Shown piece by piece: positions 13,975 to 50,687 of a DNA stretch of 64,000 nucleotides. The notes under the pieces are model-generated. The model ran no database searches. It was not told the origin of the DNA and saw nothing but the letters and a program-made list of their open reading frames with translations. The translations under genes were made by a program, and so were the position numbers. The stretch is taken from positions 1 to 64,000 of the IMG/VR virus record IMGVR_UViG_3300019757_000003; one strand, given 5' to 3'. This DNA comes from a virus. Each line of letters starts with the position of its first letter. Position 1 is the first letter of the stretch.

Positions 13975-14158
13975 ATACAGAGTATTAGTCAAGCTGGACT
14001 TAAAAGGAAGATAGGTTACTACTAATCACAGTAACTGAATAGAGGCATTTGATACTGTCCCATAGCTATTTATGAATAAATAGGACAAGTAAACTTAACC
14101 AACTTACTGTTAAAACGCTGAGTACCTTTGGTGGGTACTAGTAAATTATAGTTACTGT

Positions 14159-14234
14159 CTAAAACAACCTAATATCACATTGAATGTGACTCTGTAGAGA
14201 AAAAATGGGTTTGAATCCCTCTAGGTTGTTTTAG
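14159..14234 (+). ncRNA. Cloverleaf-like RNA element with 13-bp closing stem
   Basis: CTAAAACAACCTA (14159-14171) is fully complementary to TAGGTTGTTTTAG (14222-14234). Inside lie TCACAT-TGA-ATGTGA, CTCT-GT-AGAG, and GGG-TTTGAAT-CCC, the last like a tRNA T-arm with a loop close to the TTCRANY consensus. The acceptor is nearly twice the tRNA length and no anticodon arm with a seven-base loop is present, so it is tRNA-like at most. Confidence 0.5.
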
Positions 14235-14381
14235 AGAGTGGCTTGTTACGAGTCACATAAGAAATAAACAACTATAAAATTCCAAGCTAAAGAGCAAAGA
14301 CTTGGAAATTATATGTAAGTCATATAAGAAATCAACATAGTGAATCTATGCTCTGTAAACAAGAAGGACAACTTTAAACCA

Positions 14382-23307: not shown

Positions 23308-24399
23308 ATGAATATACAAGATTATGTTATAAATATAGAGGATAGTAGTTTACAAGATAGACTAAAGTTAAGACAAGTGTTACTTGATAATGGGCAAGAA
23401 ATATACAATGCTGAGCATTCTACTCTGCTAAAGGTACACTTAAAAAAAAGTACAGAGTATAGGCACTCTTACGACAGTTGGAGGGTAACTGCAACAGTTG
23501 AACCCAACATCTCACTAGAAAACTTTATACAAAAGTTTAAAACTAGTAATAAGCTAAGAAATTTAGCATTCTATAAAGATAGTGGTGAAGAATGGACTGA
23601 TGATGAGTGTACAACTATTAATGAATTCTTAGGAATCACTGATAATTATGTGGGAAATATAGCAAAAGATTTAAAATATTACTTTGATGATGGTGGCTCC
23701 TATACAAACACAGCTTACTCAAATTGGTTTACACAAGAGAAAGAAACTAATTTCTCTAATTGTCTACAGATAAAATATGAGGATTGTTTTATGGAAGAGT
23801 CTAAGAACCATAAAGTAAGAGAAAAAAAAGAGGTGGAACAAGAAATTAAAGTAGGTCAAATCTGGACTTCTAAGAGAACTGGCAAAGTTGTTCGTATCTC
23901 AGAGATTAGGCAAGTAACACCTTCAGGGAACCTTATCTTCGCTAATGGATTTAGTACTTTCATAAAAGAGTGTATATTTAGAGAAAGATTTATACTAAAA
24001 GATGTAGAACCTAACATACCAAATCTATGTTGTGAGACAGCATTACCAACTTGCTCTAATGAGCCAACAATACAAACAAATAAGGAAAATACAATGAATG
24101 CAACAAAAGAACAATTAGACTTAGAGCTAGTAAAGAGACAAATAGCACAACTACCAGCAGTTAAAGATGCTAAAGTTAAAAAAGTTAAAACAGACCTAGA
24201 GTCAAGAAAACCTTTTACTGTTGTAGTTTATGATGAAAATGGTAAGTACCACTCTACAGTATACTACAAAACACTAAAGAAAGCTGAGAGATTTAAAGAT
24301 GACTACTTAGCTACGAAATATGGTTATGGCTGTACAATTACTATCCATAAAGAAGTAAGTGCTTACAGTACTAAAGCTCCTATTGTAAAGGTTAAGTAA
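23308..24399 (+). CDS. Multi-module protein with paralogue of 29042 gene
   Basis: 363 residues from ATG 23308 (AAGGAATATTAAA upstream). A frame extends further 5' but runs through the exported protein gene and has no ribosome binding site. Residues about 85-165 resemble the 95-residue protein at 29042: RNLAFYKDSGEEWTDDE against RNLAIYKLSGEPWTQEE, and a shared NFxNC segment. A KOW-like stretch (IKVGQIWTSKRTGKVV) follows near residue 185, then a linker and a C-terminal domain of about 90 residues with a basic KVKKVKTDLESRKPF core. The mosaic suggests shuffling of small modules. No biochemical function recognised. Confidence 0.5.
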   Translation: MNIQDYVINIEDSSLQDRLKLRQVLLDNGQEIYNAEHSTLLKVHLKKSTEYRHSYDSWRVTATVEPNISLENFIQKFKTSNKLRNLAFYKDSGEEWTDDECTTINEFLGITDNYVGNIAKDLKYYFDDGGSYTNTAYSNWFTQEKETNFSNCLQIKYEDCFMEESKNHKVREKKEVEQEIKVGQIWTSKRTGKVVRISEIRQVTPSGNLIFANGFSTFIKECIFRERFILKDVEPNIPNLCCETALPTCSNEPTIQTNKENTMNATKEQLDLELVKRQIAQLPAVKDAKVKKVKTDLESRKPFTVVVYDENGKYHSTVYYKTLKKAERFKDDYLATKYGYGCTITIHKEVSAYSTKAPIVKVK

Positions 24400-26377: not shown

Positions 26378-26499
26378 AGAGTCTAAAAAATCGCTACTAA
26401 GACCATAACAACACTCTATGGTCTATAAAGATGAACGCTGAAATAAGTGGAGTCCGAGAAGCACCTGAACTAGGTCAGTGATAACAACAAGTATAGTTT

Positions 26500-26533
26500 A
26501 CTAGGCATCGGCTAGTGTAGGTTAAAACCCTAC
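26500..26533 (+). ncRNA. Tandem stem-loops with seven-base loops
   Basis: ACTAG-GCATCGG-CTAGT is followed without spacer by GTAGG-TTAAAAC-CCTAC. Each has a 5-bp stem and a 7-base loop, the geometry of tRNA anticodon and T arms, but U33 and the TTC of a T-loop are missing. It may be a degenerate tRNA remnant. Confidence 0.35.
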
Positions 26534-26580
26534 AAATATATAATTTATATCGTTACGAGTTTTACAGTTCCCAGGAGTAA

Positions 26581-26669
26581 TAAGTACACAGAGTACACTG
26601 CAAGTTAGCTGCAAAAGAAAGAAGAGATGGTAACTCTTGTTAAGCTGAGTGTCAACCACTGTGTACTTA
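26581..26669 (+). ncRNA. Cloverleaf-like element with Thr-type anticodon arm
   Basis: TAAGTACACAG (26581-26591) pairs perfectly with CTGTGTACTTA (26659-26669). Inside are TGCA-AGTTAGC-TGCA, the 17-base arm AAGAG-ATGGTAA-CTCTT (26622-26638), whose loop has U33 and would read as anticodon GGU, and AGTG-TCAAC-CACT. The T-loop consensus is absent, so it is not a normal tRNA. Confidence 0.45.
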
Positions 26670-26674
26670 CCTAT

Positions 26675-26744
26675 GAAGTCTTAGCTCAGTAGGCAGAGCG
26701 AATCTACCAAGATTGCGTCACTGGTTCGATTCCAGTAGACTTCC
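26675..26744 (+). tRNA. tRNA-like gene with collapsed anticodon loop
   Basis: GAAGTCT pairs with AGACTTC over all seven acceptor positions. The D-arm GCTC-AGTAGGCA-GAGC has A14 and G18-G19, and the T-arm ACTGG-TTCGATT-CCAGT is canonical. The anticodon arm is AATCT-ACCA-AGATT: a perfect 5-bp stem but a four-base loop instead of seven, so about three bases are missing. An alternative 4-bp stem leaves a six-base loop with ACC after a T. The gene is otherwise complete, so it is a phage tRNA with a defective or unusual decoding site, or a decoy. Confidence 0.7.
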
Positions 26745-26854
26745 CAGAGCACTACCTCAGAAGTGAGTTAAGAGAACTAGTCGTTTAATTGACGCAAGTA
26801 TGCCAACTATACTGACTTAGTTGGGCGTAATTAAAAATTAAAGGAATTAAAAAA

Positions 26855-27212: not shown

Positions 27213-27617
27213 ATGGAAATAGATAAAGAGATAGTGCAAAAAGTACATAGAAATGGGTTCTACATAACTGAAGAAGTAATAGCTATTAAGTTCTTAAACA
27301 AGATTAAGACTTCTAAACAAAGAGGTATTAACTTTGAATTAACAATCCCTCAGTTTAGAAGATTGATGTTATTAAAAACTTGCCATTATAGTGGTATAGA
27401 ATTATACAAAGGTAAACCTAGAGATGAAGAAAATCCTAGTTTTAATTCTATGACAATTGATAGAATTGATAATACAATTGGTTACACTAAAGACAACAGC
27501 GTTGTAGCAGCCTATGGAGTGAACCAACTTAAAGGAGAGCTAGAGAGAAACAATAATGGTGTCTCTCTAAAACATCTGATTAAGATGGTTAAAGTTTTAG
27601 CTAAATACATGGATTAA
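27213..27617 (+). CDS. HNH-type endonuclease
   Basis: 134 residues from ATG 27213 (AAAGGAATTAAA upstream). The core has the features of small phage HNH/homing-type nucleases: C57 in TCHYSGIEL, the D-R-x-D motif TIDRIDNTIGY (D83, D86) and N95, then N104 and K107 in GVNQLKGEL. The usual first His of the ββα-metal motif is replaced by Asp, as in many phage relatives. The enzyme would nick or cleave DNA and may be selfish. It is not inserted in a recognisable intron; the neighbouring genes are intact. Confidence 0.7.
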   Translation: MEIDKEIVQKVHRNGFYITEEVIAIKFLNKIKTSKQRGINFELTIPQFRRLMLLKTCHYSGIELYKGKPRDEENPSFNSMTIDRIDNTIGYTKDNSVVAAYGVNQLKGELERNNNGVSLKHLIKMVKVLAKYMD

Positions 27618-48251: not shown

Positions 48252-49144
48252 AAAATAAAGATGAATTTGGTGAAAGAATCAAAGCTTATGAAAGTGAGTA
48301 CGAACAGAGAATACCATATAATGAGTATATTATTGTAAGGATTGATGGTCATAAATTTAGCAGATTTACTAAAGGATTTAAAAGACCTTTTGATACTATC
48401 CTATCTGATACATTTAGAGAGATTACAAGTGCTTTAATTAAAGAGTTTAATGCTGTCGTAGGTTACACACAAAGTGATGAAATTACGTTAGTTATACCAC
48501 CTAACTATGGTAGACACTTAAACAATATTTGTGAAGATACTACTAACAATCAAATCTTTGGAGGTAGAACTCAAAAAATGTCTAGTCTAATCTCAGCATT
48601 TACTACTATGAAGTTTAATGAGATTCTAGCTACACAAGTAAAAGCTAGAAGAGATACGATAAAACGTTCACTTGACTATATAGATGCAGAGAGATTGTTA
48701 GATGAGATGCAAGATACTTTAGGCTATTGGAAACTTATAGACACTAAAAAAGTTGGAAAAGCTTGGTTTGATTGTAGAGTATTTGGAGTACCTGATGAAA
48801 CAGAAGCGTTTAACTCTGTACTATGGAGAATGCACGATTGCACTAAGAATAGTTACTCTCAATTTGCCTATGCTTATTGCTCACATAAAAGTCTACTAAA
48901 TAAGACTGGTCAAGAGATGGTAGAGTTCTGTAAAGAAACTACTGGTAATGATTGGAGTGAAACTGAAGAGAGATTTAAGTATGGAACTATTGTTAAGAAA
49001 CAAGACTACACTAAACCTAAAACAGATGAAGAACACTCACAAGAAACTATTAGAACTAAAACAGTATTCATTAGTAAGAAGTTGAGTTATTCAGAAGAAA
49101 ATGTAGAGTTTTTATTATGTAAGAAATTGGAGGAAGTTAAATGA
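48248..49144 (+). CDS. Thg1-like 3'-5' RNA polymerase
   Basis: 298 residues, GTG start overlapping the previous stop. The N-terminal domain has the Thg1 signature VRIDGHKFSRFTK (D33) and GYTQSDEITLV (D77, E78), the metal-binding carboxylates of the canonical-polymerase-like palm. Later, FDCRVFGVPDETEAFNSVLWRMHDC matches the Thg1 segment that contacts the tRNA. Thg1 adds G-1 to tRNA-His; Thg1-like proteins of bacteria, archaea and protists add templated nucleotides to the 5' ends of truncated tRNAs. A repair role is favoured here because the genome also carries an RNA ligase and defective tRNA-like genes. Which RNA is the substrate is not known. Confidence 0.88.
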   Translation: MKNKDEFGERIKAYESEYEQRIPYNEYIIVRIDGHKFSRFTKGFKRPFDTILSDTFREITSALIKEFNAVVGYTQSDEITLVIPPNYGRHLNNICEDTTNNQIFGGRTQKMSSLISAFTTMKFNEILATQVKARRDTIKRSLDYIDAERLLDEMQDTLGYWKLIDTKKVGKAWFDCRVFGVPDETEAFNSVLWRMHDCTKNSYSQFAYAYCSHKSLLNKTGQEMVEFCKETTGNDWSETEERFKYGTIVKKQDYTKPKTDEEHSQETIRTKTVFISKKLSYSEENVEFLLCKKLEEVK

Positions 49145-50031
49145 GTGCTAGAACACAACAACTTGCACATGATTTTGTGTATGGTAAGAAAGCTAGAGAT
49201 GGTAGTGATTACAGGCAAGTCTGGGTAACTAGTAATCGTCCAGGAGGATTTACTGGTAGACAGATGTGGTATGAAGAGAACTTAATCTACAGCTATGAAA
49301 CAAAACTAGCTCACATAAACAGAGACGATAAGTATATAGTTATGTATGAAGATACTAGAGAGAACTCAAACACTTCAAGAGAACACTATGATAGTTTACT
49401 AGAAGCTATACCTTACGACTATACTATCTACTATAGAAGAAGTGGTATGGCAACGCATAACATTATATATAAACTTGATGAGATAGATGACTTACTAAGA
49501 TTACAAGCTAAAGCTAGAGTAAGAGATTATAGAGATGAGATTGTTTTAATTATAGACAAACTCTACAACTATCTTCACTTCATTAAGTATGATAAGAGAA
49601 AGTCTGAATATAGAGATATAGCTAAAAGACTAGAGTTAATCAATTTAAATAAAAATGAACTAAAAGATAAAATAGCAGAATCTACTAGAGTATACGAGCA
49701 AAGACAAGCTAAAAAACGTAGACAATACAATCTAGCTAATCTTGAACGAAGACAGACAGAACTCTCCAACTTCTTAGAAGAAAACACGACTAAGTATGAT
49801 CCAGACTTTATAGGTGTCAGACTTAAGATTAAAGATGGTTTTCTATACACAGACAATCATATTAAAGTACTAGAGAAAGAAGCTAGATTACTCTATAAGA
49901 GATATACACAAGGTAAAACTATTATTGGTTTGAAACTAGATGGGTACACAGTATTACAAGCTAATAAAGATAGAGTTGTAATTGGTTGCACCACAATCTC
50001 ATCTGAAGAGCTAAAAAGAGTGTTAGGATGA
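49141..50031 (+). CDS. Hypothetical protein coupled to Thg1 (296 aa)
   Basis: 296 residues, no family recognised. Residues 1-110 are mixed (SARTQQLAHDFVYGK, RSGMATHNIIYKLDEID); 150-215 form a basic coiled coil (KRRQYNLANLERRQTEL); the C-terminal part is a small beta domain with a KIKDGFLYTDN strand. It overlaps the Thg1-like gene by four bases and may be its partner. The beginning resembles common phage conserved proteins of unknown role. Confidence 0.5.
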   Translation: MSARTQQLAHDFVYGKKARDGSDYRQVWVTSNRPGGFTGRQMWYEENLIYSYETKLAHINRDDKYIVMYEDTRENSNTSREHYDSLLEAIPYDYTIYYRRSGMATHNIIYKLDEIDDLLRLQAKARVRDYRDEIVLIIDKLYNYLHFIKYDKRKSEYRDIAKRLELINLNKNELKDKIAESTRVYEQRQAKKRRQYNLANLERRQTELSNFLEENTTKYDPDFIGVRLKIKDGFLYTDNHIKVLEKEARLLYKRYTQGKTIIGLKLDGYTVLQANKDRVVIGCTTISSEELKRVLG

Positions 50032-50587: not shown

Positions 50588-50687
50588 CTAGCTAATGTCG
50601 GAAGCACAGAGTACTGAAGAGTACAGACTGGTAAGTCCGATTCTTACGATTGAGGAAGGAAGGAATGGTTCGAGTCCATTCAGCTAG
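50588..50687 (+). ncRNA. tRNA-like element with canonical acceptor and T-arm
   Basis: CTAGCTA pairs with CAGCTAG over six of seven positions (A-C mismatch next to the T-arm), and AATGG-TTCGAGT-CCATT is a perfect T-arm. The 69 bases between them are longer than in a class II tRNA and hold GTAC-TGAAGA-GTAC, GACT-GGTA-AGTC, GTAAG-TCCGATT-CTTAC and a purine-rich stretch. A Tyr-like GTA lies in the GGTA loop. No standard D-arm is seen. It may be a tRNA with an insertion, or a tRNA mimic. Confidence 0.55.

Follow-up and report, generated by a model that had tools for sequence, protein, structure and literature searches.

A tRNA-shaped gene with a shortened anticodon arm in an N4-like phage and its recurrence among phage tRNA-like genes

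The stretch of DNA analysed here, positions 1 to 64,000 of the 114,270-base IMG/VR virus record IMGVR_UViG_3300019757_000003 (hereafter the window), carries an unusual tRNA-like gene with a shortened anticodon arm (Table 1), the reality of which was confirmed by a family model, a gene finder and folding. We tentatively favour, while stopping short of conviction, the view that the locus encodes a non-decoding tRNA-shaped RNA, a mimic of tRNA acting in trans and most likely a decoy for tRNA-damaging host factors. Pointing in this direction are the structure of the gene, the recurrence of the same form in other phages, the short arm's conservation among relatives of the class, and the presence of tRNA-repair-type enzymes in the same phage.

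Against the Rfam tRNA model RF00005 the gene gives a full-length match (46.9 bits, E 7.2e-7), which is the sole RNA-family match in the window as well as the only RF00005 match across the whole record, and which covers a canonical cloverleaf body with 7-base-pair (bp) acceptor, GG in the D-arm and TTCRA in the T-arm. ARAGORN reports a tRNA-??? with the two-base anticodon '(cc)', corresponding to a loop of 6 nucleotides (nt), and ViennaRNA finds the cloverleaf, its anticodon arm closed by a 4-nt loop, in the minimum free energy and the centroid structure alike (-20.2 kcal/mol, z -2.2), the opening of the closing U31-A39 pair leading to the 6-nt loop UACCAA. Neither program gives the gene a canonical 7-nt loop in which U33 precedes a defined anticodon. 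Read directly, the first half is GAAGTCT TA GCTC AGTAGGCA GAGC G AATCT ACCA AGATT, with a D-loop of 8 nt, and the second half is GCGTC ACTGG TTCGATT CCAGT AGACTTC C. As every other segment is of canonical length, including the 2-nt linker (positions 8-9), position 26 and the 5-nt variable loop (44-48), the anticodon arm is exactly 3 nt short, which bears out the original prediction, made from the sequence alone, of a four-base anticodon loop with about three bases missing in an otherwise complete tRNA. At the 3' end, C73 is followed by CAG, so that N73-CCA is not encoded; CCA could come from the host. T-1 faces C73, the acceptor helix is not extended and no T-tract follows.

Genes of this form recur. 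A pattern of D-arm and T-arm consensus separated by 22-24 nt (canonical, 25-26) matched at least 119 stretches in IMG/VR and, among the matches listed, many are perfect cloverleaves with a 5-bp anticodon stem and loops of 3-5 nt, examples of 4-nt loops being CTGA, TCAC, GAAA, TTCG, GAGA and CTAC. The window gene has the D- and T-arm consensus, the paired stem and the shortening by 1-4 nt of this class, and its 14-nt arm is of the modal length. With the spacer left open at 20-32 nt in an unbiased viral sample, 121 of 129 tRNAs showed the canonical 26 nt and one was short, so that roughly 1% of such phage tRNAs are of the short form. Among 84,980 species genomes of bacteria and archaea, 32 occurrences of the 23-nt form were counted, three of them with an N inside or beside the arm, and normal-spacing matches numbered roughly four per genome in the 19 genomes examined; six of the 32 lie in Lachnospiraceae and carry the form of the gut-phage family described below, belonging to the same phage family. 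Judged by these scans, the existence of a short-arm class is well supported, and the class is rare in cells and strongly enriched in phages. In several records the short-arm gene is the sole tRNA, namely in that of the window (114 kb), L042 (62 kb), L053 (41 kb), L065 (60 kb) and L070 (63 kb).

Conservation of the short arm could be followed in a family of about 60-kb gut phages, to which 12 short-arm loci belong by the genes they have in common and of which MT835485, with the arm CCAGA-TTAT-TCTGG, is an example. Another member of the family, the cultured Faecalibacterium phage FP_oengus (NC_047916.1, 2936-3005), carries a short-arm tRNA-like gene, unannotated in RefSeq. Eighty loci of the family were collected through the alignment of a 119-amino-acid (aa) neighbour protein, which avoids a choice based on the tRNA itself, and were searched with a covariance model, R1, built from 15 short-arm RNAs; the window RNA, which scores 75.9 bits, is one of these 15. 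Matches were obtained in 43 of the 80 loci. Among the 32 distinct RNAs the arm measures 14 nt in 20 and 13-15 nt in 24, a few having normal or longer arms. Pairs 1-4 of the anticodon stem vary on both sides with pairing mostly kept (CCAC/GTGG, CCTC/GAGG, CCGC/GCGG, CAAC/GTTG, ACAC/GTGT, CAAT/ATTG, CGGT/ACCG), and covariation over the whole structure reaches 0.565 against 0.167 in shuffled and at most 0.134 in slid alignments, a value biased towards this structure by the fitting of the alignment to the model. Loop sequences are not conserved, their lengths range from 3 to 6 nt and they share neither U33 nor R37.

The gut-family RNAs also have ends of their own. A -10-like box lies 2-6 nt upstream of base 1 in 25 of 32 (15% in shuffles), a T-tract follows the gene in 28 of 32, the acceptor helix is extended by at least 3 bp in 84% (9% in shuffles), reaching 10-11 bp, and CCA is encoded in a single one of the 32. 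A G-1:C73 signature of tRNA-His was considered for the extended acceptor and dropped, the extension being mostly 3-5 bp and not one. This anatomy is that of a putative stand-alone tRNA-shaped small RNA, neither a decoding tRNA nor a decaying gene. The window gene lacks the acceptor extension of at least 3 bp, the promoter-like box at base 1 and the T-tract.

The phage of the window encodes, in addition, a Thg1-like 3'-5' RNA polymerase and an RNA ligase (Table 1). The former scores 95.1 bits against Pfam PF04446 (cut-off 29.2), 196.9 bits against PHROG 4717 and 89.8 bits against PDB 4kgk, its catalytic motifs being visible in the 4kgk alignment. The ligase matches PHROG 968 (E 2.5e-86), and its tblastn matches are cyanophage and Aeromonas phage ligases. 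Enzymes of these kinds have been treated as phage means of undoing host tRNA damage (PMC7824862, PMC2904730), and since the phage encodes both, tRNA-targeting host immunity is a plausible setting for it. Among such host activities, RloC cuts out the wobble nucleotide, a lesion believed to resist the usual phage tRNA repair (PMC2610378). The presence of Thg1 in just 2 of 37 other records searched led us to reject a general association of Thg1 with short arms; since the gut phages with the same kind of RNA lack Thg1, no general link to the RNA exists. A 296-aa protein encoded at 49141-50031, whose gene overlaps that of Thg1 by 4 nt, is a candidate partner; it gave no Pfam match and no convincing PDB match.

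What has been kept in the RNA is the tRNA body, i.e. acceptor, elbow of D- and T-arm and anticodon stem, and what has been lost is the reading loop, in place of which a short loop caps the anticodon arm. Proteins that grip tRNA through elbow and acceptor could bind such an RNA, and the ribosome could not decode with it. If expressed, the RNA would act in trans by offering its tRNA body to host proteins that hold tRNA at elbow and acceptor and not at the anticodon. The likeliest target would be a defence or toxin protein that damages tRNA; the RNA, as a competitor or as a decoy that cannot be cleaved, would protect the pool of real tRNAs. The decoy suggested in the original prediction would be compatible with all of the findings. 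That phage tRNAs can evade tRNA-cleaving defences is established (PMC10264068, PMC11555353): those with mutated anticodon loops resist tRNA nucleases (PMC10264068), and others evade retrons and PARIS (PMC11555353, PMC12409363). Such ordinary or evading tRNAs share with the window gene the phage origin, the cloverleaf and the proposed role as an answer to tRNA-targeting defence; however, they keep the 7-nt loop and the anticodon and replace damaged tRNA in translation, whereas the window RNA is without an anticodon. Phage RNA-repair toolkits comprise RNA ligase, RlaP, the CCA-adding enzyme and Thg1, of which the phage of the window shares RNA ligase and Thg1, but the work on them deals with enzymes and not with a tRNA-like decoy RNA (PMC7824862).

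Other known RNAs resemble the window RNA in part. The animal mascRNA and menRNA, the 3' tRNA-like RNAs of MALAT1 and MEN-beta, also keep the elbow and combine a longer anticodon stem with a compact loop, and mascRNA is not aminoacylated; in contrast to the window RNA, which retains all linkers (8-9, 26, 44-48) and a normal D-arm, they are cut from long noncoding RNAs, have a smaller D-arm and lack inter-helix linkers (PMC11693755). The tRNA-like domain of transfer-messenger RNA (tmRNA) has acceptor and T-arm in common with the window element, its anticodon arm being replaced, whereas the window element has no insert or reading frame, shows A3:U70 instead of the Ala signal G3:U70 and retains D-arm and anticodon stem, nor did ARAGORN call a tmRNA anywhere in the window. 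In Nostocales (Calothrix and relatives; L361, L363, L366, L367, L370 and L374) and Oscillatoriales (L362, L376 and L377) a conserved tRNA-like gene, otherwise tRNA, has the short arm CCGA-AGAA-TCGG with a 4-bp anticodon stem and a 4-nt loop; unlike the window gene it is chromosomal, and ARAGORN, run on four of the Nostocales loci, placed it directly next to a tRNA-Lys or tRNA-Arg gene.

Several observations weigh against a decoy function of the window RNA itself. By its terminase, DNA polymerase, helicase and primase the phage lies close to the N4-like podoviruses, sharing about 25-36% identity with named phages, and in the terminase alignment with IMG/VR it falls into a clade of its own with an 84%-identical 10-kb fragment and contigs of 118, 111 and 91 kb at about 50%. 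Selection on the window copy appears not to be demonstrable from these data, as the searches for close relatives yielded none that spans the locus: a distant blastn comparison of the locus with named phages gave no match, relatives sought in IMG/VR through single proteins (the neighbour protein, RNA ligase and DNA polymerase) were not confirmed, and a synteny comparison found no conserved gene neighbours at the tRNA-like locus in the 118-, 111- and 91-kb relatives. No member of this clade shares detectable neighbours with the locus. Comparison with related phages, as proposed in the original prediction, has in this way revealed conserved short arms in another phage family and no close relative spanning the window site. 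Furthermore, the window loop UACCAA resembles a trimmed canonical loop (positions of U33, A37 and A38), unlike those of the gut family; the acceptor measures 7 bp against 10-11 bp, so that window and gut RNAs may differ in function; and Thg1 was found neither in the short-arm gut phages nor in the sampled relatives of the phage among the 37 records.

The main non-functional rival, which we regard as possible though less probable than a decoy, holds that the window gene is a decaying one, an ordinary phage tRNA whose anticodon loop lost 3 nt and which is functionless now. Since a loop deletion spares the stem, the perfect stem is no sign of selection; bases like U33 and A37 are left over, UACCAA being similar to a Gly-NCC-type loop. 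Relatives of the lineage have ordinary tRNAs in varying numbers, and G030 and G027 carry other deviant tRNAs, as turnover of tRNA genes would lead one to expect; isolated T-arm pieces also occur elsewhere in the phage of the window. In the 111-kb relative the single tRNA match above the cut-off has the normal length, but its anticodon stem is unpaired. An element that was not called in the 91-kb relative combines the acceptor GAAGACT(G)/(C)AGTCTTC with what looks like an ACCT-TGCTT-AGGT arm. On the other hand, the rest of the window tRNA is perfect, its arm has exactly the 14 nt that are the mode of the class, and the conservation of short arms through compensatory changes in the other phage family indicates that the form can be selected. 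The suggestion of a recently broken gene thus fails for the class, with its conserved short arms and compensatory stem changes, and survives for the window gene.

A wider version of the decoy explanation, in which an unnamed class of tRNA-shaped RNAs in several unrelated phage lineages has had its loop closed by selection and acts as decoys in trans against host immunity or toxins aimed at tRNA, the phage of the window adding Thg1 and RNA ligase as a kit against tRNA damage, is a doubtful proposition that we put slightly below gene decay.

The main functional rival, rather unlikely in our judgement, is a cis-acting processing signal, at which RNase P and RNase Z would cut at the acceptor/T-arm minihelix and so process a longer transcript or free an upstream structured RNA. 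A closing helix with a T-arm is the minimal RNase P substrate, which would leave the anticodon arm free to shrink; the gene lies in a folded noncoding gap of 477 nt, and other deviant elements of the phage and its relatives retain just the closing helix and the T-arm. The mascRNA and menRNA, whose anticodon stem is longer and whose loop is compact, are processed by RNase P and RNase Z (PMC11693755). Against this, the promoter-like box of the gut family abuts base 1 and a T-tract follows the acceptor, so that little transcript is left to process, and the D-arm and anticodon stem are conserved though RNase P needs neither.

Quite improbable is a tRNA precursor that the phage Thg1-like polymerase and RNA ligase would complete post-transcriptionally, in the anticodon loop or at the ends. 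The phage encodes both enzymes at a distance of 22-25 kb from the tRNA-like gene, an association of Thg1 and RNA ligase with RNA repair has been proposed (PMC2904730), and from the sequence C73 without a G at -1 would make a possible Thg1 substrate. The editing suggested in the original prediction accordingly has circumstantial backing from the two enzymes, which stands against the rarity of Thg1 and its absence from the short-arm gut phages given above. To our knowledge, no known Thg1 reaction puts bases into a loop. A deletion introduced by assembly or sequencing of the metagenome contig would accord with the single record of the phage and is very improbable, as the loss is precisely 3 nt from an otherwise perfect gene and gives the modal form of a class present in many independent assemblies and an isolate genome. 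Least credible is decoding with the 6-nt loop UACCAA, for instance by a frameshifting tRNA, for which the U33- and A37-like bases and the loop formed on opening of U31-A39 would speak, but the minimum-energy fold has a 4-nt loop; for the class, whose loops of 3 to 6 nt keep neither U33 nor R37, it was rejected.

The reason why phages carry tRNAs has been debated for fifty years. In the short-arm RNAs the tRNA body is kept and the codon-reading part is gone, which separates decoding from the other possible uses of phage tRNAs and makes non-translational roles directly testable, with an example at hand in cultured phage FP_oengus. A full-text literature search, covering few subscription papers and bioRxiv preprints, turned up papers on loop-mutated phage tRNAs and on tRNA-evading phages but, judged by their listings, none on tRNA genes of phages in which the anticodon loop is closed or missing, so that novelty of the phage class is provisional. 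It has probably been overlooked because annotation tools label such genes 'tRNA-???' or drop them.

Table 1. Positions of the tRNA-like gene and associated features in the window
Feature	Position	Strand	Remarks
tRNA-like gene	26675..26744	+	7-bp acceptor, D-arm with GG, T-arm TTCGATT, 14-nt anticodon arm versus 17
Shortened anticodon arm	26701..26714	+	5 bp + ACCA loop, or 4 bp + UACCAA loop
Noncoding gap around the tRNA-like gene	26378..26854	+	477 nt; fold mildly over-stable, z about -2
Hairpin resembling a T-arm (GTAGG-TTAAAAC-CCTAC), 5' of the tRNA-like gene	26516..26532	+	weak
Thg1-like 3'-5' RNA polymerase (tRNA-His guanylyltransferase family), 298 aa	48248..49144	+	RIDG, SDE motifs
RNA ligase with PHA02142 OB-fold domain, 373 aa	51359..52480	+	Pfam PF09414, PF21189
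Highly deviant tRNA-like element	14158..14235	+	14-bp closing helix, two small hairpins, GGG-TTTGAAT-CCC T-arm-like; 487-nt noncoding gap
tRNA-like element with two T-arm-like hairpins	50588..50687	+	6-bp closing helix CTAGCT/AGCTAG; noncoding

The lineage of the phage seems to produce several tRNA-like RNAs of non-canonical form. T-arm-like hairpins number six on the + strand of the record (26720, 50631, 50664, 78850, 78941 and 78999) versus 0.41 expected, and one versus 0.30 expected on the opposite strand; those at 50631-50647 (GTAAG-TCCGATT-CTTAC) and 50664-50680 (AATGG-TTCGAGT-CCATT) lie in the element at 50588-50687 (Table 1). A search for T-arm plus closing helix gave five elements, 14158-14235 among them, versus 0.2 expected, all outside open reading frames of at least 70 aa. 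The noncoding region G000 78796-79025 (L521 14796-15025) resembles a cluster of strongly deviant tRNA-like elements, with the three T-arm-like hairpins ACAGG-TTTAACT-CCTGT, GAAGG-TTTGAAT-CCTTC and GGTGG-TTCAATT-CCATC, the last within a 9-bp closing helix. In the relative G030 (record L404), 23909-24032 holds the T-arm AGTGG-TTCGAGT-CCACT within a closing helix of about 21-23 bp.

Around the window gene, a permissive-threshold Rfam scan left the tRNA as the sole credible match, no other family exceeded the threshold in the 477-nt gap, and a group I intron, a T-box and a tmRNA were ruled out with nothing in Rfam. Signals of sigma-70 promoters and terminators in the gap are not above chance; a sigma-70 promoter at the gene itself was discarded with a score within chance, and N4-like phages use other polymerases. 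Downstream, the protein encoded at 27213-27617 gave no Pfam match at E 0.01; it matches PHROGs of HNH endonuclease/endonuclease VII and also of Srd anti-sigma or sigma-70 decoy families.

Among the other phage records, ARAGORN called stop-codon anticodons, TTA in L064 and L479 and CTA (as Pyl) in L067 and L088, hinting at stop-codon suppression. L012 (1557-1640), L015 and L023 share a repeated element, TTCCGACTTAGCTCAGTAGGCAGAGCAGAGAGCTGTC-A(4-7)-GGCAGCGTTTCGTAGGAATACGAAAT, in which the length of the A-run differs among the phages and a tRNA-like D-arm is followed by hairpins that do not form a tRNA.
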